Origin: a gamma proteobacterium symbiont of Ctena orbiculata
Lineage (GTDB): Bacteria; Pseudomonadota; Gammaproteobacteria; Chromatiales; Chromatiaceae
Length of the DNA: 64,000 nucleotides
Assembly: GCA_003094555.1 (NCBI GenBank)
Contig: NATW01000114.1
Location: 1-64,000 of the forward strand
Direction of reading: 5' to 3'
Position numbers and translations under genes: made by a program. The notes under the pieces are model-generated. The model had not been told where the DNA came from, did no database searches, and worked only from the letters and a program-made list of their open reading frames with translations. This document shows, piece after piece, positions 2,131-41,578 of this stretch. Position 1 is the first letter of the stretch, and each line of letters opens with the position of its first letter.

Positions 2131-2149
2131 CACCTAACTCCTTTAGGTG
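2131..2149 (+). promoter_or_regulatory. Hairpin that contains the SulP ribosome site
   Basis: The inverted repeat CACCTAA / TTAGGTG with a 5-base loop ends 9 bases before the ATG at 2159. Its 3' arm holds the AGGTG(A) ribosome-binding sequence, so folding would hide the site. This is read directly from the sequence; any control role is inference. Confidence 0.4.
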
Positions 2150-2158
2150 AAAACGATC

Positions 2159-3925
2159 ATGTGGGACCATATACAGAGTCTGATGGCGGGCTGGAAAGGG
2201 GCGTTCATCCCATTTCTGGATTGGATCGGTGAGATTAAGGACAAGGAGACGATAAGAGCCGATATCATTGCCGGTATCACCGTCGCTCTGGTGCTCGTGC
2301 CTCAATCCATGGCCTACGCCCAACTTGCCGGTCTACCTGTCTACTATGGCCTCTACGCCTCATTTCTGCCACCCATGGTGGCCGCCTTTTTCGGCTCATC
2401 GAGACAATTGGCCACCGGCCCGGTAGCGGTGGTGTCGCTGATGACAGCGGCGGCCCTGGAGCCCCTTGCCACCTCCCCCGACACCTATCTGGCCTACGCC
2501 CTGCTGCTGGCCTTCATGGTGGGTGTATTCCAGCTGTTTCTCGGTCTGTTCAAACTCGGCGTACTGGTGGACTTTCTCTCCCATCCCGTGGTGGTGGGTT
2601 TCACCAACGCCGGCGCCCTGATCATCGCCACCTCTCAATTGGGCAAGGTATTCGGGGTTTCGGTGGAGCGCGAGGCCCATCACTATGAAACCGTGTGGAA
2701 CACCATCCTGGCTGCCATCGACAGTACCCATGGATCGACCTTTGGCATGGCGGTTATCGCCTTTGCCATCATGTGGGGGCTCAAGCGTTATGCACCGAAT
2801 CTCCCCGGGGTACTGATCGCCGTTGTCGTCACCACCGTGATCGCATGGTTGACGGGATTCGGCGAGGCGGGGGGCAAAGTGGTCGGCGACATCCCGAAGG
2901 GCCTGCCTGCGCTGTCACTGCCCATGTTCGACTTCACCACCATCTGGCAACTGATACCCGCCGCCATCACCATCTCCCTGATCGGCTTCATGGAGGCCAT
3001 CTCTATCGCCAAGGCGATGGCCGCACGTACCCGTCAGCGTCTCAATGCCAACCAGGAACTGATCGGACAGGGGCTCTCCAACGTGGTGGCGAGTATGTTC
3101 TCCGGCTACCCGGTATCGGGCTCATTCTCCCGTTCGGCGGTGAATATCAATGCCGGCGCCATGACCGGATTCTCATCCATCGTGACGGGTATGGTGGTCA
3201 TGATCACATTGATCTTTCTGACCCCACTGCTCTACCACCTGCCCCAGGCCACCCTGGCGGCCGTGATCATCATGGCGGTCATCAACCTGATCAAGATCGA
3301 TCCGATCATCCATGCCTGGAAGGCTCAACCCCATGACGCCATCGTCGCCGTGATCACCTTTGTCCTGACCCTGGTATTCGCCCCCCATCTCGACAAAGGC
3401 ATCATCATCGGCGTGCTCCTCTCACTCGGACTGTTTCTGTGGCGCACCATGCGGCCCCGCTTTGCTCAGCTCTCCCGCTACAAGGACGGCACAATGCGCG
3501 ACATCCGGGTACGCCACTTACCCACCAGCCCGGTTATCTCCGTGGTACGTTTCGACGGTTCGCTCTATTTTGCCAGCGCTGGCTATTTCGAAACCAAAAT
3601 GCTCGGTGTGGTGGCTGCCAATCCGGAACTGAAATACATCATCCTGGATGGTGAAGGCATCAATCAGATTGACGCAACCGGTGAAGAGGTATTGCACCAT
3701 TTGTGGGAACGCCTGCAGGCGCAAGGCATAACCCTGGTCATCGCACGTATGAAGAAACAGTTCATGGATACGATTCGGCGTACAGGACTGAAGGATAAAA
3801 TGGGCGAAACCACCTTCCACTCCCGAATCGGTCTGGCACTGACCTATGTCTGGAACCAACTGGGTGATACCTACGACAGAGAGAATTGCCCACTGCGTTC
3901 CCCGATTGGCGTCAACAGGGACTGA
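2159..3925 (+). CDS. SulP-family anion permease with STAS domain (candidate bicarbonate transporter)
   Basis: This 588-residue protein has the SulP layout: about 12-14 hydrophobic segments in the first 430 residues, including the family signature region VPQSMAYAQLAGLPVYYGLY, followed by a C-terminal STAS domain (about residues 450-560; VVRFDGSLYFASAGYFE, IILDGEGINQIDATG). SulP proteins carry sulfate, chloride, dicarboxylates or bicarbonate; the cyanobacterial bicarbonate carrier BicA belongs here. The gene is the first of a same-strand run with DabA and four antiporter-like subunits, so bicarbonate is the best guess from context, while sulfate remains possible in a sulfur bacterium. I chose ATG 2159, which has AGGTGA at a good distance; a GTG at 2147 would add four residues but would overlap that ribosome site. 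The ribosome site lies in a hairpin (2131-2149). Confidence 0.9.
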   Translation: MWDHIQSLMAGWKGAFIPFLDWIGEIKDKETIRADIIAGITVALVLVPQSMAYAQLAGLPVYYGLYASFLPPMVAAFFGSSRQLATGPVAVVSLMTAAALEPLATSPDTYLAYALLLAFMVGVFQLFLGLFKLGVLVDFLSHPVVVGFTNAGALIIATSQLGKVFGVSVEREAHHYETVWNTILAAIDSTHGSTFGMAVIAFAIMWGLKRYAPNLPGVLIAVVVTTVIAWLTGFGEAGGKVVGDIPKGLPALSLPMFDFTTIWQLIPAAITISLIGFMEAISIAKAMAARTRQRLNANQELIGQGLSNVVASMFSGYPVSGSFSRSAVNINAGAMTGFSSIVTGMVVMITLIFLTPLLYHLPQATLAAVIIMAVINLIKIDPIIHAWKAQPHDAIVAVITFVLTLVFAPHLDKGIIIGVLLSLGLFLWRTMRPRFAQLSRYKDGTMRDIRVRHLPTSPVISVVRFDGSLYFASAGYFETKMLGVVAANPELKYIILDGEGINQIDATGEEVLHHLWERLQAQGITLVIARMKKQFMDTIRRTGLKDKMGETTFHSRIGLALTYVWNQLGDTYDRENCPLRSPIGVNRD

Positions 3926-3985
3926 ATAGGATGATGTGGCAGTCAGATACCCGGCCGACGTGGCGTACCGGGTGTGGGTAGTGAT

Positions 3986-5446
3986 ATGCCTGATCTGAGT
4001 TATCTTCTCCTAACCCCTTTCGTCGGCGCACTCGCGATCACTTTCCTGCCCAGGGAGGCGAGCTGGGCCATCCGCGCCACCGCCCTGTTTGCATCGGCGG
4101 CGACTTTCGCCCTTTCGTGGGTCTATATCAGCGGATTCGACTACAACCAGCCCGGCTTGCAGTTCATTCACCAAACCGAGTGGAATACCCGCCTCGGCAC
4201 CTCCTTTGCCCTGGGATTGGACGGTTTCTCCTATCCCATGGTGCTGTTGGCCACCCTGTTGAGTCTGGTTGCGCTCCTCGCCTCGAATACGATTAACCAG
4301 AGCGTCAAGGGCTACTACATCCTGGTACTCCTGCTGGAGTCTGCGATGCTCGGTGTCTTCATGGCGCAGGACTGGTCTCTGTTCTACGTATTCTGGGAAC
4401 TGACCCTGATTCCGCTGTTCTTCCTCATCGACCGCTGGGGAGGGAAAAACCGTCATGGCGCGGCGCTGAATTTCGTCCTCTACACCATGGGTGGTTCTGT
4501 TTTCATGCTGATCAGCCTGCTGGTACTTTTCGATGCCGTACCTGGCCACAGCTTCTCCATGTCCGCCATGGCGGAGAGCGGACGCACCCTGCCCCAACAT
4601 ACCCAGGTTTTGATCTTTCTCGGTTTTCTGATCGGCTTCGGGGTAAAGATGCCAATCTTCCCCCTCCACGGCTGGCTCCCCCTGGCCCACGTGGAGGCGC
4701 CGAGCCCAATCTCTATACTACTCTCGGGTGTATTATTGAAAATGGGTTCATACGGACTGATCCGTGCCGCGGGTATGCTGCCGGATGCGGTGCTTGCCTT
4801 GCAGGACATCCTCGCCGCGCTCGCCTTTGTCAGCCTGATCTACGGTGGCCTGCTCGCCTGGCGCCACAGCGATCTGAAGGCCATGATCGCCTACTCATCC
4901 GTGAGCCACATGGGGGTTGTGCTGCTGGGCATCGCCGCACTCAACCTGGCCGGACTGCACGGCGCCCTGATGCAGATGGTCGCCCATGGCCTGGTGGCGG
5001 GTTCACTGTTCCTGTTGATCGGCCTGCTCTACGAACGCACCCGCACCCGTGATGTGACCGACTACAGCTCTCTGGTCAGGGTGATGCCGCGGTTTGCATT
5101 CTTTACCACCCTCGCCTTTATTGCCGCCGTATCACTCCCTGGCACGGCCGGATTCGTGGCCGAGCTCAACGCCTTGATAGGCGGCTTCGCCCGCTGGGGT
5201 TGGGTCGCCGCCCTGTTGACCATCGGTGTTCTGCTGAGTGCCGCCTATGCCGTGCGCACCATCAGCCAGCTGTTTACCGGACCGGTTCGCCCGGGTATGC
5301 AGAACGTGGAGGACCTACGCCCAACCGAGCTGCTGGCGGCAGGCACCCTGGCAGCAGCCACACTCCTGCTCGGATTCATGCCTACCCCTGTACTCGATCT
5401 GGTGAATGCCTCCGCTGTACAACTCTCGAGTCTGTTCTCATCATAG
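3986..5446 (+). CDS. NuoM/MrpD-like proton-translocating membrane subunit (first of the DAB locus)
   Basis: This is a 486-residue polytopic protein of the proton_antipo_M family, with about 14 predicted membrane segments. The residues that relay protons in NuoL/M/N are kept: the glutamate in FWELTLIP (E138), the lysine in GFGVKMPIFPLHGWLP (K221) and the lysine in SDLKAMIAYSSVSHMG. No other complex I subunits are present, so it is not part of NADH dehydrogenase. It lies 60 bases after the SulP gene and ten bases before dabA. This points to a role as an ion-moving partner in inorganic carbon uptake. The start is uncertain: ATG 3986 was chosen over an in-frame GTG at 3974. The family is certain; the role in carbon uptake is inferred from position. 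Confidence 0.85.
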   Translation: MPDLSYLLLTPFVGALAITFLPREASWAIRATALFASAATFALSWVYISGFDYNQPGLQFIHQTEWNTRLGTSFALGLDGFSYPMVLLATLLSLVALLASNTINQSVKGYYILVLLLESAMLGVFMAQDWSLFYVFWELTLIPLFFLIDRWGGKNRHGAALNFVLYTMGGSVFMLISLLVLFDAVPGHSFSMSAMAESGRTLPQHTQVLIFLGFLIGFGVKMPIFPLHGWLPLAHVEAPSPISILLSGVLLKMGSYGLIRAAGMLPDAVLALQDILAALAFVSLIYGGLLAWRHSDLKAMIAYSSVSHMGVVLLGIAALNLAGLHGALMQMVAHGLVAGSLFLLIGLLYERTRTRDVTDYSSLVRVMPRFAFFTTLAFIAAVSLPGTAGFVAELNALIGGFARWGWVAALLTIGVLLSAAYAVRTISQLFTGPVRPGMQNVEDLRPTELLAAGTLAAATLLLGFMPTPVLDLVNASAVQLSSLFSS

Positions 5447-5456
5447 GATCAGTGGC

Positions 5457-8400
5457 ATGAATGAGAACCACAGCAAGAGCAGCGATATCCGGGAGCAGAT
5501 CAGAGAGACTATTGATCATCTGCAACATCTGCTCCCCAGCCAGGCACCCATCCGGGACTTCGTACACCACAATACCCTGCATGGTTTTCAGCATCTCCCC
5601 TTCCAGGAGGCCCTGGCCAGCGCCCGCCGCATTACCGGCGCCCGCGGCTTTTTGCCGTTGCAGCGGTATCGGGACTTTTATCACCAGGGCCGCATATCTC
5701 ACCTGGACCTGGTGAGTTGCGTGGCACAGGAGACGCAGCTCGAACCCCACACCCAATTGGCAGATACGGCCCATGCTTCGATTCGTCGCAGCGATATCAT
5801 CGTGGCGATCATGACCATGCCCTATCAACCTGTATCCGGCTGCCAACTCAATTGGCAGATCGAGGAGAATCGAGTGCTTGAACGACTCCGTCCCGATCTG
5901 CCCAAGGCAAGCCGGGATCGACTCTTGAAGCATGCCCAAAAGAGTGGTCAGACGACGGAGTCGAGTGCTGTCATGGACCTATGGAACGCCTGTCTCCAGG
6001 TGCTGCACCTGGAACACGATTCCACTCATCCGGAGGAGTTGCTCGATTTGGCGCCGCAACAGGCCGAGACCCTGTTGCATGAAATGCTCGATATCGCGAA
6101 CAGTGTGGAGGGCAATCCCAGCACAACCACCCAACTGATGCAGCAGGCCGCCAATGACCGCTTCGACAAGTTGCTCGAACGTCTGGGTGATGACATGACC
6201 ATGCGGGATCTCCTATTGGCCCTCACCGGCCACGACCTGCTGGACGATATACGCCCCCAGTTGATCAGGGATCTGGCAAATTTTCTCGATCAGGGGGTGG
6301 CCAGCTGGCGTCCGGTCTCCCGCTCCGCTGGTTTTTATCACTATTGGAGTAACAGGGCTGAGCAGGATCTCGACTGGCAACTACGCAATATCGAGGGATG
6401 GCAGCAACACCTGGAACTGCTCCTGAACGATCCTATGGAAACCATCATCAGCGAGCTGCATAGAATGGGCTTGCAACGGGATAACTGGAGCGGTTACCTG
6501 GAACGGTTGGCATTGGAACTGCCCGGTTGGTCCGGCATGGTTCTGTGGCGGCACAACCACCCTGACTATGAATCTCTCTCTGCCCGTGTCGACATGCTCG
6601 ACTATCTCGCAGTGCGACTGGTACTGGAGAGGATCTACGCCCACAATCTCTGTGCGCGCCTGTTCAATATCGAATCCAGTGTCGACATGCTGCGTTGGTA
6701 TTTCCACCATCAGGCAGATGAATTCACTGTCCGCGAGGCACTCTTCAACAGCCGTCTACCGGAATACCTGGCAAGCCGTGCACAACGGGCAGTGCACGCA
6801 CCCGCCAACAGGGATGGGGACGATAACTCGGCGCGTTGGCGGCATCTCGCCCAGTTGATCTGGACATGGCGTCAAAGCAGCGGCAGCTACGAAACCAACA
6901 CTCAACCGACCCTGTGCCAGGGTGCCTGGCCCCTGTTTCAGCTGATGCAGCAGCTTGGCTGGTCCGGTACAGAGGTGCGCGACCTCAGTTATGAGCAGAT
7001 CCAGGCCATATTCGAGACAGTCGACGCACTCGATGAAGACCGCTTGGGTTATATCTGGCTGCGCGCCTACGAAAAACACTATCGTGATCAGATCCTGACC
7101 GCGCTGTCCGAAAACCGTGGACGCGGTGCCTGGCCGGATCGACAACAGCGGCCAGCCGCGCAGGTGGTATTCTGCATGGATGACCGTGAGGAAGGGACCC
7201 GCCGCCATCTGGAGGAGATCTATCCAGAGGTAGAGACCCTGGGTACTGCCGCACACTTCAATGTCCCCCATAATTGGCGGGGACTGGATGACAGCTGTGC
7301 CGGACCTCAGGCACCGGTCATCCCGACCCCGGTGATCCCGGTGCATGAGGTTCGGGAGACACCAGCTGAAGCAGACCTTGAAAACGGCAGATACCATCAG
7401 CAGCGCCATCAACTGTTGAAGAAAGGCCACCAGCTGCTGTTACAAAACACCCGCCGAGGGACCCTCCTCCCCGGTTTGTTGGTGACTATTGCCGCACCCG
7501 CCACCTTGGGTGTATTGATCGGCAAGATCCTGGCACCCAGGCCCTTTGGGCGACTGCTGGCCCATCTGCGACAGCAGGTTGAAAGGCCGGTAACAACCCG
7601 GATTGAATACAAGGCGCCGAATGATAGTCCGGAGGCGAGCATTGAATCGCCCCGTCTGGGGTTCACCGATATGGAGCAGGCGGACCGGGTACAGGCAATG
7701 CTGAGAAGCATCGGTCTACTCAGTGGCTTCGCCCCAATCGTCAGCATCGTGGGTCATGGCTCACGCAATCAAAACAACCCCCATGCTTCGGCATACAACT
7801 GTGGTGCATGTTCAGGACGTTTCAGTGGACCGAATGCGCGTCTCGTGGCCGCGATGGCCAACCAGGATGAGGTTAGAGCGATCCTGGCAGAACGTGGCAT
7901 CAGCATACCCGAAGATACCTGGTTTATCGGTGCCGAGCACGATACCTGCGGTGAGACCATAGACTGGTACGATCTTGACCGGCTACCCGCTGAGTTTCGT
8001 CCGGCGCAGGAGCAACTGGTAAAGGCCTGCGAACAGGCCTGTCAACTGCACGCCCAGGAGCGCTGCAGACGTCTGGCCTCCGCGCCTCAGCAAGCTGATC
8101 CTGATCAGGCCTTTGACCATGTCTTCGGCCGTTCCCTCGATTTTTCCCAGGTGCGGCCAGAGCTCGGCCATGCCACCAATGCCTGTGCATTCTTCGGCAG
8201 GCGCTCTATCAGTCGCGGTACATTTTTGGACCGGCGGGCCTTCCTCATCTCCTATGACGCCTCCCAGGACCCGAGTGGGGAAATACTTGAGCGACATCTG
8301 TTGATCAATGGCGCGGTGGGTGCCGGAATCAATCTCGAATACTACTTCTCCACGGTGGACAACGAACACTATGGCTGTGGTTCCAAGGTCACCCACAATG

Positions 8401-8777
8401 TGGCCGGCTTTCTCGGGGTGATGGAAGGCACCAGCTCGGATCTGCGTACCGGGCTGCCACGGCAGATGATCGAAATCCATGAAGCGATGCGTCTTTTGGC
8501 CGTGGTGGAGGCCAGCACCGACAGATTGACCGAGATCTATCAGCGCCAACCCCCGCTGCAGGAGCTGGTGGGGAATGGCTGGGTGGTGCTGGTGTCCATG
8601 GATCCGGATAGCGGAACATTCCATCTGTTCGAACCTGGGGCAGGGTGGGTTCCCTGGCAACCTGACAATCGTGGGATAGCAAAGGTGGATCGTTCCGCCG
8701 AGTGGTATATGGGCTCGACGGAGCCGCTGCGGCCGGCATTGATCACAACCCCGCAGGAGGCGAACGCAGATGCTTGA
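5457..8777 (+). CDS. dabA: DabA, inorganic carbon accumulation subunit (DUF2309, beta-CA-like zinc site)
   Basis: This 1,106-residue protein matches the DUF2309/UPF0753 family named DabA in the DAB bicarbonate-accumulating complexes of chemolithoautotrophs. The carbonic-anhydrase-like metal site is visible: Cys and Asp in FCMDDRE (C573, D575), His in VGHGSRN (H767) and Cys in YNCGAC (C782). The 15-residue His-to-Cys spacing is that of the described zinc ligands. In the known model DabA hydrates CO2 to bicarbonate in one direction while the membrane partner DabB supplies ion-gradient energy. The ATG at 5457 has AGGA overlapping the upstream stop; a start further upstream would overlap the previous gene. 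It overlaps the next gene by 8 bases, so the two are translationally coupled. DabA is soluble apart from a hydrophobic patch near LLPGLLVTIAAPATLGVLIG. Confidence 0.93.
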   Translation: MNENHSKSSDIREQIRETIDHLQHLLPSQAPIRDFVHHNTLHGFQHLPFQEALASARRITGARGFLPLQRYRDFYHQGRISHLDLVSCVAQETQLEPHTQLADTAHASIRRSDIIVAIMTMPYQPVSGCQLNWQIEENRVLERLRPDLPKASRDRLLKHAQKSGQTTESSAVMDLWNACLQVLHLEHDSTHPEELLDLAPQQAETLLHEMLDIANSVEGNPSTTTQLMQQAANDRFDKLLERLGDDMTMRDLLLALTGHDLLDDIRPQLIRDLANFLDQGVASWRPVSRSAGFYHYWSNRAEQDLDWQLRNIEGWQQHLELLLNDPMETIISELHRMGLQRDNWSGYLERLALELPGWSGMVLWRHNHPDYESLSARVDMLDYLAVRLVLERIYAHNLCARLFNIESSVDMLRWYFHHQADEFTVREALFNSRLPEYLASRAQRAVHAPANRDGDDNSARWRHLAQLIWTWRQSSGSYETNTQPTLCQGAWPLFQLMQQLGWSGTEVRDLSYEQIQAIFETVDALDEDRLGYIWLRAYEKHYRDQILTALSENRGRGAWPDRQQRPAAQVVFCMDDREEGTRRHLEEIYPEVETLGTAAHFNVPHNWRGLDDSCAGPQAPVIPTPVIPVHEVRETPAEADLENGRYHQQRHQLLKKGHQLLLQNTRRGTLLPGLLVTIAAPATLGVLIGKILAPRPFGRLLAHLRQQVERPVTTRIEYKAPNDSPEASIESPRLGFTDMEQADRVQAMLRSIGLLSGFAPIVSIVGHGSRNQNNPHASAYNCGACSGRFSGPNARLVAAMANQDEVRAILAERGISIPEDTWFIGAEHDTCGETIDWYDLDRLPAEFRPAQEQLVKACEQACQLHAQERCRRLASAPQQADPDQAFDHVFGRSLDFSQVRPELGHATNACAFFGRRSISRGTFLDRRAFLISYDASQDPSGEILERHLLINGAVGAGINLEYYFSTVDNEHYGCGSKVTHNVAGFLGVMEGTSSDLRTGLPRQMIEIHEAMRLLAVVEASTDRLTEIYQRQPPLQELVGNGWVVLVSMDPDSGTFHLFEPGAGWVPWQPDNRGIAKVDRSAEWYMGSTEPLRPALITTPQEANADA

Positions 8778-10326
8778 ACGATTCGCATGGCTGGTTCCTC
8801 TCCTGCCCTGCCTGGCCGCCGGGTGGATCGGCCTCGGTTATATCCTCAAACTCAATCGCGGTGAAGCCGGTGAGCGCCAGACATCCCTGGTTGCCCTGGG
8901 CGCTGCGAGCGGGTCCCTGCTGTTGGCCCTGGCCCTGGCGGCTGAGGCAGTTCGACTAGGTGCGCCCGGACAGCTGGTGCTTGGTACCTGGTTCGATAGC
9001 GGGGATGTCCATCTGCCAATCAGTTTCAGCCTGGATGCGACCGGTCTTTCCCTGCTGGTGGTGGTGACCCTGATCGTCTTTCTGAGCATAAAATTTTCCA
9101 TTAACTACATGCACCGCGAGACAGGCTACCAGCGCATATTCATGCTCTTCTGTCTGTTTGCCAGTGGCATGGAACTGATCGTGCTGGCGGGGAATGCCCT
9201 GCTCGCTTTTGTGGGATGGGAGATCGTCGGTGTCACCTCATACCTGTTGATCGGTTATGCCATCGATCGGCAGACAGCCACAAAAAACGCTGTACGGGTG
9301 TTCATCACCAACCGGGTCGGCGACACCGGATTCATCATCGGCATCGCCCTCTCATTGTTCTGGCTCGGGGGGGTCGAATGGCCCCAAATCAATGCCGAGG
9401 CCGGTAACATCGGGACCCTCGCGGCCGGGGTGATCGCGGGCGGTTTCGTTATCGCCGCACTGGTCAAGTCGGCACAGCTGCCGTTTGCACCTTGGATCTC
9501 CCATGCATTGGAGGGGCCCACACCCTCTTCGGCCATCTTCTACAGTTCATTGATGGTACATGCCGGGGTCATCCTGTTGATACGTCTGGCACCGCTGTTG
9601 GAGCAAGCGCCTGCCATCATGATCACCATTGCCATCCTCGGGCTGCTGACCGTGATTTATGGCTGGCTGGTCGGGTTGACCCAGTCCGATATCAAAAGCT
9701 CGCTCATGTTCGCCACCACGACCCAGGTCGGTCTGATGTTCCTCTGGTGCGGCATGGGGTGGTTTACCCTGGCTGCCTGGCATCTGAGCCTGCATGCCGT
9801 GTGGCGGCTGTTTCAGTTCCTGGCATCGCCGGCATTGGTCAATCAGATAGATACCACCACTCCAGCGCCTCCCCCTTGGCTGACGCGTTGGCGCTGGCTG
9901 CATAATGCCTCCCTGCAGCGTTTCTGGCTCGACACCTTGTCCGACACGCTCCTTACACGCCCGACGGTATCCCTGGCGAAGGATGTGCAGTACTTTGACG
10001 AACAGGTAGTCACCCGGATCATCGGATTGCCTGTCTATACCCGCAGCGTCTCCTCCCTCACCCAGTGGGAGGCGTTGCAGAAACGCAGTTCGGAAGATCC
10101 GGCTGGCACGGTAGGTCAGGGCACCGGATTGGCCGGTAAATTCATGACATGGCTGGCCAATATTCTCTACTGGTTTGAATCCCGTCTTGTACTGCGCGGT
10201 GGTGGTGAAGGGTTACTGAAAAACCTGCATCGTGTGGGGGGTGTGCTGCAACGGGTTGAGCAGTTATTGTCCACGCCGCGCTACCTGATCGTGTTGGTGG
10301 TGGCAACCTTCGTGGTGATCCTGTGA
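8770..10326 (+). CDS. dabB: DabB-like NuoL/MrpA-type membrane subunit
   Basis: This 518-residue polytopic protein is related to NuoL and to DabB. It has the antiporter core with the glutamate in AFVGWEIVGVTSYL, the lysine in ALVKSAQLPFAPW and the lysine in SDIKSSLMFATTTQVG. The C-terminal part (about residues 390-518) has an amphipathic stretch and a last hydrophobic helix (YLIVLVVATFVVIL), which recalls the lateral helix region of NuoL-type proteins. The ATG lies inside the dabA 3' end with an 8-base overlap, the arrangement expected for a DabA-DabB pair. It is therefore the most likely direct partner of DabA, coupling cation flow to CO2 hydration. Of the four antiporter-like proteins in this locus this is the only NuoL-type one. 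The gene symbol is assigned by family and position. Confidence 0.85.
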   Translation: MLERFAWLVPLLPCLAAGWIGLGYILKLNRGEAGERQTSLVALGAASGSLLLALALAAEAVRLGAPGQLVLGTWFDSGDVHLPISFSLDATGLSLLVVVTLIVFLSIKFSINYMHRETGYQRIFMLFCLFASGMELIVLAGNALLAFVGWEIVGVTSYLLIGYAIDRQTATKNAVRVFITNRVGDTGFIIGIALSLFWLGGVEWPQINAEAGNIGTLAAGVIAGGFVIAALVKSAQLPFAPWISHALEGPTPSSAIFYSSLMVHAGVILLIRLAPLLEQAPAIMITIAILGLLTVIYGWLVGLTQSDIKSSLMFATTTQVGLMFLWCGMGWFTLAAWHLSLHAVWRLFQFLASPALVNQIDTTTPAPPPWLTRWRWLHNASLQRFWLDTLSDTLLTRPTVSLAKDVQYFDEQVVTRIIGLPVYTRSVSSLTQWEALQKRSSEDPAGTVGQGTGLAGKFMTWLANILYWFESRLVLRGGGEGLLKNLHRVGGVLQRVEQLLSTPRYLIVLVVATFVVIL

Positions 10327-10336
10327 GGGCCAAGAC

Positions 10337-11851
10337 GTGACAATCGAAACCTTCCACTGGTCGACCCAGATCTCGTACCCGATTCTGACCCTATTGCAAC
10401 TCCTGCCACTGGCCACCGTCGTGTTGCTGTGGTTATTGCGCCGCCACCCCTGGCTCGTGCCGACAGGTCTAGTCGCTGCGCTGCTGCAGCTGTTGCTGAG
10501 TATCGATCTGTGGCGCCACTACGACACCAATCTGGCAGGCTTTCAGTTTGTCGAAAAGGCTCAAATCATACCTCAATTGACCTACCATGCCGGCGTTGAC
10601 GGTATCTCGGTGATCTTTATTCTGCTGACGGGACTGCTGACCCTGCTGGTTGCCCTGTATGGCGTGGTACGGGAATTGAAACCCTTCAACCGCCTCTATA
10701 TGGCGATCTTCGCCGTGCAGGCCTGCCTGATGGGGCTGTTCGTCACCCTCAATCTACTCTGGTTCGTGCTGTTGTCGGCGGCCCAAATCGGCTTCATCGG
10801 TTATCTTCTGTGGCGTTGGGGCAACTCACCGGACAAGGAGCTGGCACTCAAGCGTTTTTACCAATTCATGTCGGTGAGTATCCTGCTATTGATTGCCGGT
10901 ACCCTGTTGATGGGCTGGAACTACTCCGACAGTCACGACGGCGTCTGGAGTTTCAATCTGCTGCAACTGGCACAAACACCCGTCTCCGATACCTTCCGCT
11001 CAGTCGCCTTCTTTCTGCTTTTTTATGGGCTGGCGATACGCACCCCGCTCTTCCCCCTGCACGGTTGGCTGCCGATGGTTGCTGAACATGGCAATGTAGC
11101 CGTCGCACCCACCTTACTCCTCGGGCTCAAGATCGGTATCTACGGTCTGCTGCGCTTTGTACTACCCTTGTTACCCACCGCGGTCACTGAATGGCACAGC
11201 TATGTGGTCACGTTCGCCCTAACCGGAATCTTCTACGCCGCGTTTCTCGCCATGATGCAGGATAATCTGCGCCGGCTGCTCGCCTATGCGGTGATCTCCC
11301 ATACCGGGATCCTGATATTGGGTATCTTCAGTCTGGAACATGCCGCCTTTATGGGCAGTGTGATTCTTTCGGCCACTTTTGGCCTGGCCCTGGCAGCCCT
11401 GGTATTTACCACCGGATTGCTGTTTCGGCGCACCCACACGACCCTGCTGCACAATCTGGGCGGCCTGTTCGATAGCCTGCCTTTCCTCGGCATCACCTTT
11501 CTCATCGGCGGGCTTGCCATCATCGGCATGCCAGGGACACCGGGATTCGATGCCGCGCATCTGATTCTTGAGTCAGCCATTCATAAATTCGGTGCATTGG
11601 TGACCATCGCATCCGCCCTGGGTAATGTGGTGGCGGCAGGCTTTCTCTTATGGGCCTTCCAGCGGGCCTTTCTGGCACCCCGTCCCAGTGGTAGACAGCC
11701 GTTTCAGGTGATCCCCATTTCAAAACCTGAAGTGTTCGTAGTCAGCGCCCTGATAGTGGTGCTGCTGAGTGCCGGTTTCTTCATAGAGCCCTGGCTAACC
11801 CTGATTGATAAGCCGCTCGCTGCATTGAGCGCTATTTACACCGCCCATTGA
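10337..11851 (+). CDS. NuoM-like subunit with altered proton-channel residues
   Basis: This 504-residue polytopic protein is of the proton_antipo_M family. It starts with GTG at 10337, ten bases after the preceding stop, with GAGGG just upstream. The fold is clear (LFPLHGWLPMV, LLAYAVISHTG), but key charges have changed. The transmembrane glutamate of the WEL motif is replaced in VLLSAAQIGFIGYLL (alanine 148 at the aligned place). The channel lysine is arginine (R235 in LAIRTPLFPLHGW), and the DLK motif reads NLRRLLAY. This suggests that the subunit does not pump like its neighbours and may have a structural or gating part. Position between the NuoL-like gene and another NuoM-like gene, with short gaps, places it in the same operon. 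Confidence 0.82.
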   Translation: MTIETFHWSTQISYPILTLLQLLPLATVVLLWLLRRHPWLVPTGLVAALLQLLLSIDLWRHYDTNLAGFQFVEKAQIIPQLTYHAGVDGISVIFILLTGLLTLLVALYGVVRELKPFNRLYMAIFAVQACLMGLFVTLNLLWFVLLSAAQIGFIGYLLWRWGNSPDKELALKRFYQFMSVSILLLIAGTLLMGWNYSDSHDGVWSFNLLQLAQTPVSDTFRSVAFFLLFYGLAIRTPLFPLHGWLPMVAEHGNVAVAPTLLLGLKIGIYGLLRFVLPLLPTAVTEWHSYVVTFALTGIFYAAFLAMMQDNLRRLLAYAVISHTGILILGIFSLEHAAFMGSVILSATFGLALAALVFTTGLLFRRTHTTLLHNLGGLFDSLPFLGITFLIGGLAIIGMPGTPGFDAAHLILESAIHKFGALVTIASALGNVVAAGFLLWAFQRAFLAPRPSGRQPFQVIPISKPEVFVVSALIVVLLSAGFFIEPWLTLIDKPLAALSAIYTAH

Positions 11852-13365
11852 GACGGCTGCAAATGGGACCATTCGACACCATGACTGATCTGCCACTGCT
11901 AACTATACTGCTGCTACTGCCACTTGTGGGTGCGGGAATGATCTGGCTTTTTCCAGTCCCCAAGGCGCGTCTGGTCACCCTCGCCACGCTGTTGGGCGCT
12001 CTGCTCCCCGCGTTGGCTGTTGTTGCCCTGCTGGAACTCGATAATCCTGGGTTTCAGTTCGTTGAACAATATCCCTGGATACCCGCGCTGGATGCCAACT
12101 TCAGATTTGGGGTCGACGGACTGTCCGCCCCATTCCTGCCCTTGACAATAGTGCTTTTTAGCGCCGTGACCCTCGCATCCTGGACCCATATTCAGAGCCT
12201 GCAAAGAGTCTACTACAGTCTTCTGCTGCTGTTCGCCACCGCCACCCTTGGCGTGTTTATGAGCATCGATGTGCTGGCCTTTTTTCTGTTTTGGGAACTG
12301 ACCCTGGCCCCCCTCTATTTCCTGATCAGCCTGTGGGGGATCGGCCCCCATCGACGTTACGCGGCGACGAAATATACCCTGTTCATGCTGGCGGGCGGGA
12401 TTCCACTGCTGCTTGCGATTGCGGTTCTGGCCTTCAATCATGCTGAGATCAGTGGCGCCGTACCCCCAGAAGGGCTCTCGTTCGACTACCAGACCCTCCT
12501 CGACACCCCCCTTCCCGCCGGGCTCGAAATCGTGGTATTTCTGTTTCTGTTGGTGGGCTTTGCGGTTAAGACCCCGCTGTTCCCCCTGCATACCTGGCTG
12601 CCCATCGTTGCCCTCGAGGGCCCGGCCCCCGTTGCTGCGCTCTTGGTGGGTCTCAAACTGGGCGCCTATGGCATCATCCGATTCGCCATACCGCTGGCAC
12701 CGACAGCAGCCCAGGAGCTGCATTGGCTGCTGGCTGGACTGGGTGTCATCGGCTTACTCTATGGGGCCCTGGCAGCCCTAAACCAAACCAATCTACGACG
12801 TATGCTGGCCTACTCCTCCATGAGCCACGTGGGACTGGTGGTTCTGGGCATCGCCTCTTTCAATCAACAAGGGTTGCAGGGGGCAATTTTTCAGCTGCTC
12901 AATTTCGTCATCATCGCCGGGGGACTGTTTCTCCTTAGCGGTTATCTGCATCATCGTCTGGGCTCCACCGATCTGATCCACCTTGGGGGCATAGCACAGA
13001 CGATGCCGTTACTCGCCGCTTTCTTCATGTTTCTGGGATTGGCCTCGCTGGGTATTCCCGGGACGAGTGGATTCCCGGCTGAGCTGCTGATCCTCATCAG
13101 TGCCCTTGAAACCCATACCGGTGCCGGACTCGCTGCCCTGTTCGGTCTCATCATCGGTACCGGTTATCTGTTGAACAGCTATCGCCAAAGCTTTTTCGGA
13201 CCGATCACTGACGGCCAGGTCAGGGCCAGTCAGGACCTGCGCCCCAGGGAGCTGACCACCATGCTGCTGTTCTCCCTGCTGGTGCTGGTGTTCGGCCTGT
13301 TTCCCGGCTTGGTTCTGGATTTGATGGAATCGACAGCGAAACTATGGCTGGAGCGTTTGCGGTAA
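11848..13365 (+). CDS. NuoM-like proton-translocating subunit (last of the DAB locus)
   Basis: This polytopic protein of up to 505 residues is of the NuoM family. It keeps the glutamate in FLFWELTLAPLYFL and the lysine in GFAVKTPLFPLHTWLP, but the DLK position reads NLRRMLAYSSMSHVG. The frame opens with ATG at 11848, overlapping the previous stop by four bases (ATGA); the later in-frame ATG at 11881 (MTDLPLL) would also give a natural N-terminus, so the start is uncertain. It ends the same-strand run that begins with SulP and is followed at once by the GC-rich palindrome at 13376. A role in the inorganic carbon complex is inferred from the operon. Confidence 0.83.
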   Translation: MRRLQMGPFDTMTDLPLLTILLLLPLVGAGMIWLFPVPKARLVTLATLLGALLPALAVVALLELDNPGFQFVEQYPWIPALDANFRFGVDGLSAPFLPLTIVLFSAVTLASWTHIQSLQRVYYSLLLLFATATLGVFMSIDVLAFFLFWELTLAPLYFLISLWGIGPHRRYAATKYTLFMLAGGIPLLLAIAVLAFNHAEISGAVPPEGLSFDYQTLLDTPLPAGLEIVVFLFLLVGFAVKTPLFPLHTWLPIVALEGPAPVAALLVGLKLGAYGIIRFAIPLAPTAAQELHWLLAGLGVIGLLYGALAALNQTNLRRMLAYSSMSHVGLVVLGIASFNQQGLQGAIFQLLNFVIIAGGLFLLSGYLHHRLGSTDLIHLGGIAQTMPLLAAFFMFLGLASLGIPGTSGFPAELLILISALETHTGAGLAALFGLIIGTGYLLNSYRQSFFGPITDGQVRASQDLRPRELTTMLLFSLLVLVFGLFPGLVLDLMESTAKLWLERLR

Positions 13366-13375
13366 AAATCAATGG

Positions 13376-13400
13376 TAGGGTGGGGCCCTGCCCCACCCTA
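13376..13400. repeat. GC-rich palindrome (REP-like), copy 2
   Basis: A perfect 11-bp stem TAGGGTGGGGC / GCCCCACCCTA encloses a 3-base CCT loop. The core is the reverse complement of copy 1 at 1241-1261. It lies between the convergent ends of the last NuoM-like gene and the carbonic-anhydrase-like gene. It may act as an end-of-transcript structure but has no T-tract. Confidence 0.65.
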
Positions 13401-13452
13401 TGGCTTAATCAAGCTCAACCACCCGCGACAGCCGTTCATGTGCGGACTCTTC

Positions 13453-14514
13453 TCATTCCCCATTCAGCATCTCCAAATGTCGGGAGTGCCAATTCAATAC
13501 GGCAGTCTTGACTCGCATCTTCTTCGCCAGCTCAGGGTGGGAGGTACGGATCCGATCGGCGGCAAAGTTGCATAGAAAATTCGACTTCACCTCTGCCCTC
13601 GCCCGATCCACGCCCACGTCGTGGTAGGGCACTGAGGCCAGGAGCAGGAAGCCATCGTCCGGAATGCGCCCAGCCTGCATGTTACTTTCGATTATCCCGG
13701 CAGCTTTGTCGATGGGGTCGGAAAGGTTCGGACTATAGGGCCCGATGATCAGCGCCAGATTGGGGGTATGCAGAAAATCGAAGCCACGACCTACGCAGAT
13801 CATCCATTCCCGATGCACAAGATCCAGCTCCCGTTGCATCTGGCGCGCCTCGAACACATGGTCGAGATTACCCGCCACCAAAGGCAATAGATCCTGCCTC
13901 ATCTGCGCAGACATATCCGGATAGAGCGCCTCCAGCCGCGGCAGCAGGGTATCTTTATCACTCAAGCTCAGATCCGCCGTGTTGAGTTGTTCTCCTGTCG
14001 AACCATGCAGGATCAATGCGTCATCATCAGTCTCAAACCCACACACGATCGGGTAGACCGTTTCATGATCAGGGCCGAACACCTCTTCCACCTGTCGCTT
14101 TATTTGATAGGTATGCGCTTTTGCCGCCTCGGTATCATAATTGAAACCGGCGCAGCCCCTTTGGGGATCCCCCTTGGAGTAGTGGTAAGTGATCAAGTTC
14201 AGCACCCGCCTGCCATCGGACACGACATTCTGCACATAACTCGCCAACACCTCCCCAAGATGTGGCCAACCTAGATTGAAGATACCGCCCAGGTTGCGAA
14301 ATGGCTGAATAATGCCCTGTGGTGTATTGGTGGCGAAGGGTATGTTGATACGGCCGTCCATGCACTTCATCACGGCGATCGCGGTGGGGTGTTCTGAAAG
14401 ATAGCGGGTACGCGCCAGCCAACTGCCCGGGGTACTGTAACTTTCAGAGTGGGTAGTGGCATGATTAATTAACCACTCGATACGTTCCTGAATGGGTTTG
14501 CTATGAATATCCAT
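13453..14514 (-). CDS. Beta-carbonic-anhydrase-like protein, CsoSCA-type metal motif
   Basis: The 353-residue protein carries the active-site pattern of beta-carbonic anhydrases: Cys-x-Asp-x-Arg in VMKCMDGRI (C51, D53, R55), an RNLGG loop (residues 73-77, RNAGN in standard enzymes), and a His and Cys as further zinc ligands (H111, C121). In ordinary beta-CAs the latter are HxxC; here nine residues separate them, which resembles the carboxysome enzyme CsoSCA. Length and lack of a signal peptide fit a cytoplasmic protein. No carboxysome shell gene lies in the window. The gene is convergent with the DAB locus, and AGGAAGG lies just before its ATG. It may interconvert CO2 and bicarbonate delivered by that locus. 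The catalytic motif is seen; the CsoSCA relation is from memory of the family, and activity is untested. Confidence 0.75.
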   Translation of the reverse strand: MDIHSKPIQERIEWLINHATTHSESYSTPGSWLARTRYLSEHPTAIAVMKCMDGRINIPFATNTPQGIIQPFRNLGGIFNLGWPHLGEVLASYVQNVVSDGRRVLNLITYHYSKGDPQRGCAGFNYDTEAAKAHTYQIKRQVEEVFGPDHETVYPIVCGFETDDDALILHGSTGEQLNTADLSLSDKDTLLPRLEALYPDMSAQMRQDLLPLVAGNLDHVFEARQMQRELDLVHREWMICVGRGFDFLHTPNLALIIGPYSPNLSDPIDKAAGIIESNMQAGRIPDDGFLLLASVPYHDVGVDRARAEVKSNFLCNFAADRIRTSHPELAKKMRVKTAVLNWHSRHLEMLNGE

Positions 14515-26698: not shown

Positions 26699-28021
26699 CT
26701 ACATTCCAGCCGCGCTGTCGAACTGCTCCTCTTCCGTGGAACCGGTCAAGGCGGTAACCGACGAAGCACCACCCTGGATAACCGTTGTTACATCGTCGAA
26801 ATAACCGGCACCCACCTCTTGTTGATGTGAGACAAAGGTATAACCCTTGTCGCGTGCCGCAAATTCCGGCTCCTGAACCTTTTCAACATAGTGCTTCATA
26901 CCCTCACCGCGGGCATACTCATAAGCGAGATCGAACATGTTGAACCACATGTTGTGGATACCGGCCAAGGTGATGAACTGGTATTTGTAACCCATGTCGG
27001 AGAGTTCATCCTGGAACTTGGCGATGGTCTTGTCATCCAGGTTCTTTTTCCAGTTGAATGAGGGTGAGCAGTTGTAGGCCAGCAGTTTGTTGGGATTTTC
27101 AGCCAATACAGCCTGGGCGAACTCGCGGGCAAAGCCCAGGTCCGGGGTGCCTGTCTCGCACCACACCAGATCCGCGTAGGGGGCATACGCCAATCCACGG
27201 GATATGGCCTGTTCCAAGCCATTCTTTACACAGTAGAAACCCTCGCTGGTACGCTCACCGGTAAGGAACGGCTGATCATTGGCATCCACGTCGGAGGTCA
27301 GCAGGTTGGCCGCCTCGGAATCGGTACGTGCCAACACCAGGGTAGGCACGCCCATCACATCCGCCGCCAGGCGCGCGGCAATCAGCTTTTGTACCGCCTC
27401 CTGGGTCGGTACCAATACCTTGCCCCCCATGTGCCCACACTTCTTGACCGCTGCCAGTTGATCCTCGAAGTGCACACCCGCCGCACCTGCAGAGATCATA
27501 TTCTTCATCAGTTCGAAGGCATTCAGTACACCTCCGAAACCAGCCTCGGCATCCGCAACGATGGGCAGGAAGTAATCGATATAGCCTTCATCTTGCGTAC
27601 CCACATCCCGTGACCACTGGATCTCGTCGGCACGTTTAAAGGCGCTGTTGATTCGGCGCACCATGGTGGGTACCGAGTCGTAGGCATACAGGGACTGATC
27701 CGGATACATGGTCTCGGAGGTATTGCCATCCGCCGCCACCTGCCAGCCGGAGAGATAGATTGCCTCGATGCCGGCCTTGGCCTGCTGCATTGCCTGACCA
27801 CCGGTGATCGCGCCCATGCAGTTCACATATCCCTTTTTGGCGTCGCCACGCACCAGGTTCCAGAGCTTATCAGCACCGCGCTTGGCATAGGTGTACTCGG
27901 GTTGTACCGAGCCTCGAAGACGTACCACGTCTTCTGCACTGTAACCGCGCTTGACATCGGTCCAGCGGGGGTTTTCCGACCAATCCTTCTCCAGGGCTTC
28001 GATCTGTTCTCTACGTGTCAT
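26699..28021 (-). CDS. aceA: Isocitrate lyase
   Basis: This 440-residue enzyme splits isocitrate to glyoxylate and succinate, the first step of the glyoxylate shunt. The catalytic signature KKCGH is present in [17 protein letters not shown], along with [24 protein letters not shown] and [10 protein letters not shown]. Length matches the short bacterial (E. coli type) enzymes. ATG 28021 has GGAG seven bases upstream; the frame is open for 22 codons before it and that part overlaps aceB. It lies 49 bases after aceB on the same strand and is followed by a strong terminator. Together with aceB it lets the cell grow on acetate or other C2 units, or assimilate C2 units while also fixing CO2. Confidence 0.97.
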
Positions 28022-28070
28022 CTGTTTCTCCAGTGGTATCTTTGGTTTGGTTTTATGCGTGCCCCGGCAC

Positions 28071-29684
28071 TCAGTCGAGTTGCTCATAGGCGGGAAGAGT
28101 CAGGAACTCCTGAAATTCATCAGCAGCGACAATCTGTCTCAAAAGGGATGCCGCCTGTTCGTAATGCCCTGACTCATACGCCAGTTCACCGGTCTCATTT
28201 CGGATCAACTCCAGTTCATCACTGACTGCACGATCGAATAGTTGATAGGTGACCTTACGACCATCATTGAGCACCCCCTTGGGGTAGCGGATCCATTGCC
28301 AAATCTGTGAGCGGGCAATCTCCGCGGTTGCCGCATCCTCCATCAGATGGTGAATTGGCACGGCCCCACGTCCACCCATCCAGGCAGCCATATAGCGCAG
28401 TGCCGCGCTGATATTGTTGCGCAGACCCGCTTCGGTAATCTCTCCTTCAGGCACCATCAGTAGGTCGCTGCTGGTGACATTCAATCCATCCACCCTATGC
28501 TCGAGTTGGTTGGGACCCGGCATATGTTTATCGAAAACGGCCATGGCAATGGGTACCAGCCCGGGATGGGCTACCCACGTGCCATCATGACCATCCCCAG
28601 CCTCCCGCTCCTTATCCAGTCGCACCTTCTCCTTTGCTTCGGCATCGGCCTTTGCATCGTCACGGATCGGGATTTGCGCCGCCATGCCGCCCATGGCATG
28701 GGCGCCACGTCGGTGACAGGTGTTGATTAACAGCTGTGAATAGGCACGTAAAAAGGGAACTGTCATGGTGACCTGGCTGCGATCGGGGAGCACGCATTCC
28801 GGATGGGCGTGAAAACGTTTGATAAAACTGAAGATATAGTCCCAGCGCCCACAGTTGAGACCACAGATGGAGTCACGCAACTCGTACAGGATCTCATCCA
28901 TCTCAAATACCGCGGGAATGGTTTCGATCAACACTGTGCAGCGGATAGTGCCATGCTCCAGGTCCAGCTGTCTCTCGCTCCAGGAAAAGACATCCCGCCA
29001 CAATTGGGCCTCCAGATGACTCTCCATTTTTGGCAGATAGAGATAGGGTCCTGTGCCTAGATCGATGAGCGCCTTAGCGTTATGAAACAGATAGAGACCG
29101 AAATCAAACAAGGCTGCTGACAGCCGGCGCCCATCCACCAGTACATGTTTTTCTTCCAGATGCCAGCCCCTGGGTCGAACGATCAGCGTCGCCAACTCAT
29201 CGTTCAGGGTATAGGCCTTGCCTTCCGGGCTGGTATAGGTCAAGGTCCGGTTGACGGCTTGTTTAAGGTTTATCTGGCCCTCGACACTGGCTTTCCAGGT
29301 TGGCGCATGGGCATCTTCCAAGTCAGCCATGAAACATTTGGCGCCTGAGTTCAATGCATTGATCAACATCTTGCGATCAACCGGACCAGTGATCTCTACA
29401 CGCCGATCCTGAAGATCTGCCGGCGCCGGCCTGACCTTCCACTCGGACTGCCTGATTCCGCTGGTTCGCTCCAGAAAATCGGGTAGCTCACCACGATTCA
29501 ATCGCGCCTGCCTCTCTTCCCTGAGCTTCAGTAACTCCCGTCGCCTGTTGCCGAAATGGCGCTCAAGCTCGGCAACGAAATGGAGTGCCTCAGCCGAGAG
29601 GATGGTCTCGAAACCAGGGTCCATGGTCCCGGTTATTCGTACCTCATGCGGCTGTTGCCTGAGACTTGAAGGTGTACTGGACAT
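28071..29684 (-). CDS. aceB: Malate synthase A
   Basis: This 537-residue enzyme condenses glyoxylate with acetyl-CoA to malate. It is of the A type, with [13 protein letters not shown], the [14 protein letters not shown] segment, the [20 protein letters not shown] block and the C-terminal [22 protein letters not shown] 29684 was chosen because GGAGAG lies nine bases upstream and because it gives the expected N-terminus; an earlier in-frame start would add 11 residues. It is the first gene of aceBA. The 258 bases between it and the divergent aceK hold a pair of inverted 14-base sites that may control both directions. Confidence 0.96.
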
Positions 29685-29781
29685 AATCTTTGCTCTCCTC
29701 ATCTTCACTCTTGCCACGCACCTTTCGTGTGCGTGGATGTCGTTTTCTGTCGGTCATGCCCCAAAGTTGAGATACATGCCG

Positions 29782-29882
29782 TTTTTGTGCACTGCGTTAA
29801 AGCATAGTGAAAAGGTCAAGATTATTGTCAAAAAAATATCAATAGTTAGGTTTGATAAAAAAAATAGTGCAGTGCAAAAAAA
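29782..29882. promoter_or_regulatory. Paired inverted sites in the aceB-aceK control region
   Basis: TTTTTGTGCACTGC at 29782-29795 and, on the opposite strand, TTTTTTTGCACTGC at 29869-29882 differ at one base of 14. They are 87 bases apart and face each other between the divergent aceB and aceK starts. The match is seen directly; that a shared regulator binds them is inference. Confidence 0.45.
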
Positions 29883-29942
29883 TCAGCTAAACCTTAGTAA
29901 ATAGCTCAAGCTTTATGACACAGACCAAAGAAACGCACCAAA

Positions 29943-31706
29943 ATGATGCAAATTCATCCACAACAGATCGCCCAATCGATCCTTACCGGGTTCGAACGAC
30001 ACTTCTCCTTTTTTCAGGAGATCAGCAGTGCCGCGCGCCAACGCTTCGAGCATGCGGATTGGGAGGCAGTACGGGAGGCTTCTGCAAAACGCATCAGTTT
30101 CTATGATCTACGGGTGCAGGAAGCCATCAACAGGCTGAATGCGAACTTCGACATCGACCAACTGGACGAGGGCTTGTGGCAACAGGTCAAACAGACCTAC
30201 GCCAACATGCTCAAGACCCATAGCCGACCAGAGCTGGCAGAGACTTTTTACAATTCCGTATTCTGCCGCTTGTTCGATCGCAAGTATTATGACAACGACA
30301 AGATCTTTATCGAATCCCAGGTGGATCGTGGGGAGTTATCTGAGCGTTACCGCGTATATATGTCTTTCCATGTGGCCGAAGGGGGATTGACCGGGACGCT
30401 GTGGGATATTCTCTCCGCCTTCTACTTCTCACTCCCCTATCAAGATATCAAGCGGGACTGCGACCGTGTCGCTCAATCCCTGCTTGATCAGACCGGCTTT
30501 GATCAGCTTCCGGCAGATTTACGCTTTGATCTATTGGAATCACCCTTTTATCGGAATAAAGCCGCCTACATCATAGGACGTATGGTATATGGCGATACTG
30601 TCCGTCCCTTCATCCTGCCGCTCATCAACAACGAACAGGGTGGTCTGTATGTGGACACCCTGCTGATCCGGGGGCGCCATGTGGAAGCTGTTTTCAGTTT
30701 CGCCCGGGCCTATTTCATGGCAAAGACGCCGGTTCCGACAGCAACGGTGGAATTTCTCCAGAGCATCATGCCCTACAACACCCTGGCCGAACTCTACAAC
30801 AGCATCGGTTTTCATAAGCAGGCCAAGAATGAGTTCTATAGAGATCTGCTGAATCACCTTGATGGAAGCAAGGATTTGTTCGTGACCGCCGCCGGCACCC
30901 CCGGCTTGGTCATGCAGGTATTTACACTCCCTTCTTTTCCCTATGTCTTCAAGGTGATCAGAGACGTCTTTCCGCCACAGAAAGAGGTCACTCACAAGCT
31001 GGTCAAAGAGCGTTACCTTCAGGTTAAAAAACATGATCGGATTGGACGCATGGCGGATACCCTTGACTTTATGGATGTCGCCCTGCCAATCAATCGCATA
31101 GAACCCAAACTATTGAAAGAGCTGCAGGAGACCGTGGCTTCCCAGCTCGAATACGACGGTGACATGCTGGTAATCAGACATCTCTATATCGAGCGTCGAA
31201 TGGTGCCACTCAATCTCTATCTACAGGATGCGGATCAGGCAAAGACCAGAGAGATACTGGATGATTGGGGACTGGCTTTAAAGCAATTGATGGGCGTGAA
31301 TATCTTTCCCGGTGACCTGTTGTTCAAGAACTTTGGTGTCAATTGCCAGGGTAAAGTCGTGTTCTATGACTATGACGAGGTCTGTTATCTGAGTGAAGTT
31401 AACTTCCGCAGGATACCTCCACCCAGAAGCTCCCTGGACCTCTACCGTGACGAACCCTGGTATAGCATCAATCCCAACGATGTTTTTCCGGAAGAGTTCA
31501 TCACCTTCGTAACCACCGACGCACAAACTCGAAAAATGCTGATGGAACTGCATCCGGAACTTTTTGACTATCGCTATTGGCAAAAGGCACAGCAGAATCT
31601 TGCGGCGGGGATCCAGGCAGATGTTTTTCCCTATTCCCAAAAACTACGCTTCGAGCGCCCCCAAGCGGAGCAGAAAGAAATCATGAAAATCGCAAGTACG
31701 GCATAG
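29943..31706 (+). CDS. aceK: Isocitrate dehydrogenase kinase/phosphatase
   Basis: This 587-residue bifunctional enzyme phosphorylates and dephosphorylates isocitrate dehydrogenase and so splits carbon between the TCA cycle and the glyoxylate shunt. The length is close to the 578 residues of E. coli AceK. The nucleotide-binding region shows AGTPGLVMQVFTLPSFP followed by VFKVIRDVFPPQKEV, and the conserved C-terminal block includes VFYDYDEVCYLSEVNFR. In E. coli the gene is the third of aceBAK; here it is divergent from aceBA, which breaks co-transcription and may allow separate control. Two adjacent ATG codons begin the frame; the first is used here. It is convergent with the sugar transferase gene 21 bases away. 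Confidence 0.96.
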   Translation: MMQIHPQQIAQSILTGFERHFSFFQEISSAARQRFEHADWEAVREASAKRISFYDLRVQEAINRLNANFDIDQLDEGLWQQVKQTYANMLKTHSRPELAETFYNSVFCRLFDRKYYDNDKIFIESQVDRGELSERYRVYMSFHVAEGGLTGTLWDILSAFYFSLPYQDIKRDCDRVAQSLLDQTGFDQLPADLRFDLLESPFYRNKAAYIIGRMVYGDTVRPFILPLINNEQGGLYVDTLLIRGRHVEAVFSFARAYFMAKTPVPTATVEFLQSIMPYNTLAELYNSIGFHKQAKNEFYRDLLNHLDGSKDLFVTAAGTPGLVMQVFTLPSFPYVFKVIRDVFPPQKEVTHKLVKERYLQVKKHDRIGRMADTLDFMDVALPINRIEPKLLKELQETVASQLEYDGDMLVIRHLYIERRMVPLNLYLQDADQAKTREILDDWGLALKQLMGVNIFPGDLLFKNFGVNCQGKVVFYDYDEVCYLSEVNFRRIPPPRSSLDLYRDEPWYSINPNDVFPEEFITFVTTDAQTRKMLMELHPELFDYRYWQKAQQNLAAGIQADVFPYSQKLRFERPQAEQKEIMKIASTA

Positions 31707-41485: not shown

Positions 41486-41578
41486 ACCCGCAGACGATAG
41501 CAATAATGGCAAACAGAAAATGCTTCTTTACAAATAGGCGGATCGCCAGATCCGCCTACTGACCGAGTCTGACACGAT

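Follow-up and report, generated by a model that had tools for sequence, protein, structure and literature searches.

A symbiont locus that appears to encode an enlarged form of a known CO2 pump of bacteria

Introduction

The closest system described in structural terms is DAB2 of Halothiobacillus neapolitanus, which consists of DabA2 and DabB2 (9rd0, 9rd8 and 9rd9; PMC13144422). In DabA2 the active-site residue Leu658, which replaces the canonical Gln or His of beta-carbonic anhydrases (beta-CAs), was reported to be strictly conserved in 150 homologues and is dispensable for DAB2 (PMC13144422). DabB2 carries Ile151 at the position of the TM5 glutamate, a substitution that the authors tied to its working alone, and restoring Glu at this position halved growth yield (PMC13144422). 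In the literature that we searched for a structural study, only this two-subunit form was found. A search of the literature for multi-subunit DABs returned only the COGNAT study of 2017, in which 'clade C' ybcC operons have COG3002 upstream of a nuoL-like gene, together with COG0659 (SulP) and COG1008 (NuoM) (PMC5700660). That study suggested that the number of membrane subunits sets the number of ions moved, in the framework of an outward, exergonic pump (PMC5700660). A preliminary description of the locus analysed here took known DAB systems to be two-part, a premise that was already superseded by the three-subunit DAB1 and by clade C (PMC5700660). Here, we compare this locus with its relatives across bacterial phyla and ask what its additional membrane subunits may contribute.

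Results

Reading the open reading frames of the window (the whole stretch of 64,000 nucleotides analysed) reveals six genes on the plus strand, all open and intact, in the order SulP-M1-DabA-DabB-M2-M3 (2147-13365). The first encodes a SulP protein of 588 residues with a STAS domain (2159..3925, with an ORF opening at a GTG at 2147; TIGR00815, 471.6 bits). M1 (3974..5446), M2 (10337..11851) and M3 (11848..13365) are NuoM-like antiporter subunits with PF00361 domains, and their TIGR01972 (NuoM) scores of 492, 303 and 442 bits each exceed the family cut-off. DabA is of the long form (5457..8777; PF10070, 773.8 bits at a cut-off of 25), and its residues are numbered here from the start of its ORF at 5406. 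DabB (8770..10326) is NuoL-like and matches PF00361 and PF00662 over its first ~360 residues only. The joints measure 48, 10, -8, 10 and -4 bases from SulP to M3, and the last four suggest that M1-DabA-DabB-M2-M3 are likely coupled in translation. Intact frames, protein families and joints thus bear out the tight same-strand run of the preliminary description. Scans of the run for promoters and terminators gave matches at the level of shuffled sequence (8 versus 8.2 and 11 versus 10.4).

Among the genes of the run there are none for the electron input of complex I (NADH, FeS and quinone modules, NuoH/J/K), as the preliminary description had stated for NADH-binding and quinone-site subunits. 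The genome's own NuoL/M/N set lies on a separate contig (C139), and M1, M2, M3, DabB and DabA have orthologues in matching tree groups across phyla, separate from the complex I of this genome; this rules out that the run is a fragment of complex I. Antiporter-like sets beyond complex I also occur in this genome outside the window, with three PF00361 proteins on one contig (G000:C84:15334-19276) and two on another (C154:1489-3884). Elsewhere in the window, a gene for a 1648-residue pyruvate:ferredoxin oxidoreductase-like protein is followed by one for a protein with Nuo51 FMN-binding and RnfC domains (36539-42919), possibly a ferredoxin-linked redox complex, and isocitrate lyase and malate synthase genes adjoin AceK in a glyoxylate bypass set (26699-31706).

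To place the run among its relatives, loci were gathered by a DabA-alignment scan of genome contigs, taking the best 80 of at least 586 relatives plus further relatives, and neighbourhoods were read for ~100 loci; because the best-scoring 80 were taken, this sample is biased towards the DabA type of the window. As a unit, M1-DabA-DabB-M2-M3 is conserved in Pseudomonadota, and it is seen again in other phyla. The full five-gene order is present in ~37 distinct loci (39 counted in the main classes, two pairs being the same contig), among others from the genus of the window, Methylococcales, Thiothrix, Nitrosomonas, Nitrotoga, Sulfurimicrobium, Dechloromonas, Magnetococcales and Polyangium. Copies from Chloroflexota, Actinomycetota and Roseovarius have an extra antiporter-like gene, M4, while the clusters of Myxobacteria and Planctomycetota are limited to DabA-DabB-M2, often with SulP alongside. 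The NuoM-like genes are therefore strongly conserved beside DabA, as expected if the preliminary description, which had proposed looking for the same gene set in relatives, was correct on this point.

An evenly drawn sample of 398 Pseudomonadota genomes gave the same picture. DabA scored above cut-off in 68 of these genomes and M2 in 36, the latter called at bit scores above 550 (save one fragment at 351), with other NuoM-like proteins at 324 or below. DabA is present in all 36 M2-bearing genomes, and in 34/34 cases on the same contig M2 lies 1.7-2.4 kb downstream of DabA on the same strand, a gap that leaves room for DabB (Fisher p ~1e-32 for the co-occurrence, the genomes not being independent). 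This co-occurrence and the order kept across phyla exclude a chance run of similar genes. A plasmid search for M2 returned no match.

Several variants of the cassette were also seen. Two Thiothrix relatives (L086:7538-21494 and L056:8439-23117) carry two tandem DabA-DabB pairs inside one M1...M2-M3 cassette. In the six-gene clusters L087, L099, L101 and L107, M4 has Glu in TM5, Lys in TM7, Asn in TM8 and Lys in TM12, and it groups with a protein of the cluster on contig C84 of the window's genome. DabAs of the Nitrospirales/Nitrospina type (L109:9950-22134, L110, L113, L117 and L119) have a NuoN-like/NuoL/NuoM trio ~2.5-3.5 kb downstream, the NuoL of which has a long tail (105-133 aa); these DabAs differ from the window type in having Leu in the 658 column.

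The three NuoM-like subunits differ in their proton-path residues, which were scored in columns set by the genome's own NuoM (a few loci being one contig counted twice). M1 and M3 of the window have all four residues (TM5 Glu, TM7 Lys, TM8 Lys and TM12 Glu), and the first three are kept in 63/63 M1 and 48/48 M3 copies, TM12 Glu in 62/63 and 47/48. In M2 of the window TM5 Glu is lost, TM7 Lys is replaced by Arg235 and TM12 Glu by Ala, with TM8 Lys265 kept. The same pattern holds across M2 copies, with TM5 Glu in 0/61, Arg at the TM7 position in 57/61, TM12 Glu in 10/61 and TM8 Lys in 49/61. Judged by these residues, M1 and M3 look fully proton-competent, whereas M2, having lost its path, most probably does not carry protons in the manner of complex I. 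A row of four equal pumps is ruled out by the degeneration of M2.

The zinc site of DabA (C590, H784 and C799) and the D592-R594 dyad are invariant in 72/72 sequences, and the transmembrane finger hairpin is kept (655-681/687-709). An AlphaFold2 model of DabA (pLDDT 86) finds its best folds among beta-CAs (CsoSCA 2fgy with Z 10.9, 8thm with 10.5 and a red-alga CA with 8.4); 9rd0 is not among the top-listed Foldseek matches, and kinship to DAB2 shows in the sequence. The column of DabA2 Glu444, in the finger, holds Glu in 5/5 two-gene DabAs and in 0/67 of the multi-subunit and Nitrospira-type DabAs, of which 21 have Asp and that of the window has Thr. As this residue is essential in DAB2, the DAB2 proton path is not simply transferable. 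The Leu658 column holds His in all 62 members of the multi-subunit clade (His922 in the window) and Leu in five two-gene and five Nitrospira-type DabAs; the His-bearing DabAs form one clade with 100% SH-aLRT.

DabB of the window is NuoL-like up to about TM11 and keeps Glu151, Arg182, Asp185 and Lys233. Its TM5 Glu, an inter-subunit ion-pair residue, is present in 67/68 copies from multi-subunit systems versus 0/5 two-gene copies. An AlphaFold2 model (pLDDT 83) superposes on E. coli NuoL over 398 residues at 2.4 A, such that residues 3-408 of the model span 1-561 of the chain; ~150 NuoL residues, the TM12-14 region, have no counterpart, and about half of the second NuoL channel is lost. From residue ~383 to 518 follows a lateral-helix-like tail with a terminal TM helix, modelled at low confidence (block means of 46-67 over 411-518). 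A looser match to 7p7l_L aligns this tail with the NuoL lateral helix and last TM (model 3-500, chain 1-612, rmsd 7.5). The tail measures 26-27 aa in the two-gene class; 38-67 aa without a terminal TM in the DabA-DabB-M2 class; 112-138 aa with a TM in the five-gene class; and 127-237 aa in the six-gene class, the Roseovarius tail of 127 aa falling inside the five-gene range. This pattern, with about four lineages behind it, fits a strut whose length tracks the number of subunits.

SulP is recurrent near the cassettes, yet it is missing from many. Bicarbonate is a plausible substrate of the window protein. It scores far below the cut-off of the BicA model NF050096 (147 versus 880), and among solved structures its best matches are SLC26/SulP proteins from plants, animals and bacteria with several different substrates.

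On the minus strand, a gene for a 353-residue CsoSCA-type beta-CA homologue (13453..14514) converges on the 3' end of the run. It was initially described as a beta-CA-like gene facing the end of the run; its orientation and its five beta-CA active-site residues agree (C51, D53, R55, H111 and C121; residues 12/12), but its match is to the CsoSCA family (PF20686, 25.7 bits at a cut-off of 21.5) rather than to an ordinary beta-CA. It is not a full-length CsoSCA either (TIGR02701, 34 bits at a cut-off of 241). The gene shares a contig with DabA in 17 of the 18 genomes of the window's genus that have both, 14 times within ~6 kb, and in three Nitrosomonas loci (L066, L067 and L069) it directly follows M3 on the same strand. 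Because it also occurs in two genomes without DabA (G048 and G013), the protein is a partner at most; it is likely a functional neighbour of the run. The genome has two RuBisCO large-subunit matches and one alpha-CA, and neither a BMC shell protein (PF00936) nor a canonical beta-CA (PF00484) was found in it. It would be wasteful to keep a cytoplasmic CA beside a pump that traps bicarbonate, unless CO2 has to be released for RuBisCO without a carboxysome, which we offer as a conjecture. The window also encodes a class III adenylate/guanylate cyclase catalytic domain (49847-51292); some class III cyclases sense bicarbonate.

Discussion

What purpose might three additional antiporter-like subunits serve in a CO2-capturing system? 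We think it probable, with some reservation, that M1-DabA-DabB-M2-M3 form one membrane complex, a vectorial carbonic anhydrase that is driven by the proton motive force (pmf) and sits on a complex-I-like arm. DabA would be a cytoplasmic zinc enzyme that hydrates CO2, and DabB, as a NuoL minus the TM12-14 region, would provide its membrane dock, with the DabA finger probably occupying the vacant place. The lengthened tail of DabB would hold the row of NuoM-like subunits together, like that of NuoL in complex I. The proton-conducting units would be M1 and M3, and M2 would be a non-conducting spacer or adapter beside DabB; this arrangement gives no particular place to M1, whose gene lies upstream of DabA. 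Protons flowing inward through the intact subunits would deliver energy that the arm passes on to DabA, and DabA would make bicarbonate and keep it in the cytoplasm, perhaps in parallel with bicarbonate import by SulP where the latter is present. We infer the physical assembly, direction, coupling, a stoichiometry of more than one H+ per CO2 and the role of SulP as the best explanation of gene conservation, residue patterns, the predicted folds of DabA and DabB and the tail-length pattern. The larger ion-driven pump acting on one DabA that was originally envisaged thus survives as the best reading, in keeping with the conserved NuoM-like genes. However, its four translocating subunits are too many, since TM5 Glu is missing from all 61 M2 copies and TM7 Lys is replaced by Arg in 57 of them, and DabB has lost about half of the second NuoL channel.

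It is possible, if unlikely, that DabA and DabB alone couple protons to CO2 hydration and that the NuoM-like proteins are bound accessories for stability, assembly or regulation that add no coupled ions. Indeed, DAB2 works with DabA and DabB alone, so CO2 uptake in itself does not require the extra subunits, and M2, which is kept most constantly among the extra partners and is the sole one in the myxobacterial and planctomycete clusters, has no proton path. However, M1 and M3 keep their proton-path residues across phyla with hardly an exception, a pattern that passive parts would not readily account for, and the inter-subunit Glu of DabB is retained only in multi-subunit systems. Less probable still is that M1-M3 constitute an Na+/H+ antiporter-like module of their own, with SulP as an Na+-HCO3- symporter drawing on its sodium gradient and DabAB independent of it. 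PF00361 proteins are known from Mrp antiporters, SulP adjoins many cassettes and SulP-type bicarbonate uptake has been linked to sodium, but DabA and DabB sit between M1 and M2, overlapping or nearly touching, the run has no further genes for Mrp-type subunits and many cassettes have no neighbouring SulP. Moreover, M2 is kept beside DabB in other phyla even without M1 or M3.

The array could also run in reverse, such that an exergonic reaction at the DabA head drives ions out, as the 2017 study proposed (PMC5700660), and antiporter-like arms are reversible in principle. We regard this as highly improbable: the measured relatives accumulate carbon and require membrane energy, and the beta-CA fold and zinc site of DabA indicate a reaction near equilibrium.

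Returning to the inward-driven complex, by our estimate maintaining bicarbonate at ~3000-fold above equilibrium would cost ~20 kJ/mol, and a proton at 150 mV would yield 14.5 kJ/mol and two protons 29. A cell with a low pmf would thus gain from having more than one conducting unit. It is tempting to go further and propose a graded family, in which CA machines of two, three, five or six subunits sit on complex-I-like arms, the force available for trapping bicarbonate follows from how many subunits conduct protons, the DabB tail is sized to the row and M2 is a dead coupling element, though this extension is speculative and somewhat more likely to fail than to hold. If the array is real, it would represent the machinery by which many nitrifiers, methanotrophs and sulfur oxidisers take up carbon, and it would offer a simple non-redox system in which to study energy transfer along a complex I arm and the relation of subunit number to stoichiometry.

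The central idea is not new, since a clade with SulP and NuoM and the ion-number proposal were published in 2017 (PMC5700660). Clade C has the same gene set and type of order as the run; the main text of that study does not analyse residues subunit by subunit, compare DabB tails or assign a function in CO2 handling (PMC5700660). What is apparently new here is the intact proton path of M1 and M3 versus the degenerate one of M2, a DabB that keeps TM5 Glu, has lost TM12-14 and has a tail scaling with the antiporter-like genes, and a DabA without the DAB2 finger glutamate and with His for Leu658. In the papers that could be searched, no mention turned up of the residue split and the degenerate M2, nor of the deletion in DabB and the scaling of its tail.

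With a PF10070 DabA, a zinc site with an Asp-Arg dyad and an adjacent NuoL-like DabB, the run would by its sequence belong to the DAB/DAC systems (DabA-DabB complexes that accumulate inorganic carbon), but Thr in the Glu444 column, His922 and DabB Glu151 place it outside the DAB2 subtype. The two share a zinc beta-CA head with a Cys-Asp-Arg/His/Cys site, the finger hairpin in DabA and a NuoL-like DabB (PMC13144422). DAB2 differs in having two subunits, Glu444 in its finger, Leu658 in its active site and Ile151 in TM5 of DabB (PMC13144422); the run adds three NuoM-like subunits, its DabA has His922 and lacks the finger Glu, and its DabB retains Glu151 in TM5, has a long tail and has no TM12-14 region.

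With the membrane arm of complex I (NuoL/M/N) the run shares homologous subunits, ion-pair Glu and Lys residues and a lateral-helix-like tail; it differs by its DabA head, one degenerate NuoM-like subunit and the lack of NADH, FeS and quinone modules and NuoH/J/K. Cyanobacterial NDH-1MS (NdhD3/NdhF3/CupA) likewise sets a CO2-hydrating head on antiporter-like subunits, but it is driven by electron transfer, for which the run has no input genes, and its CupA/CupS head is not known to be related in sequence. If the array is real, the same energy-transmitting arm would have been built with a redox head, as in complex I, or with a CA head, and with varying numbers of pump units.
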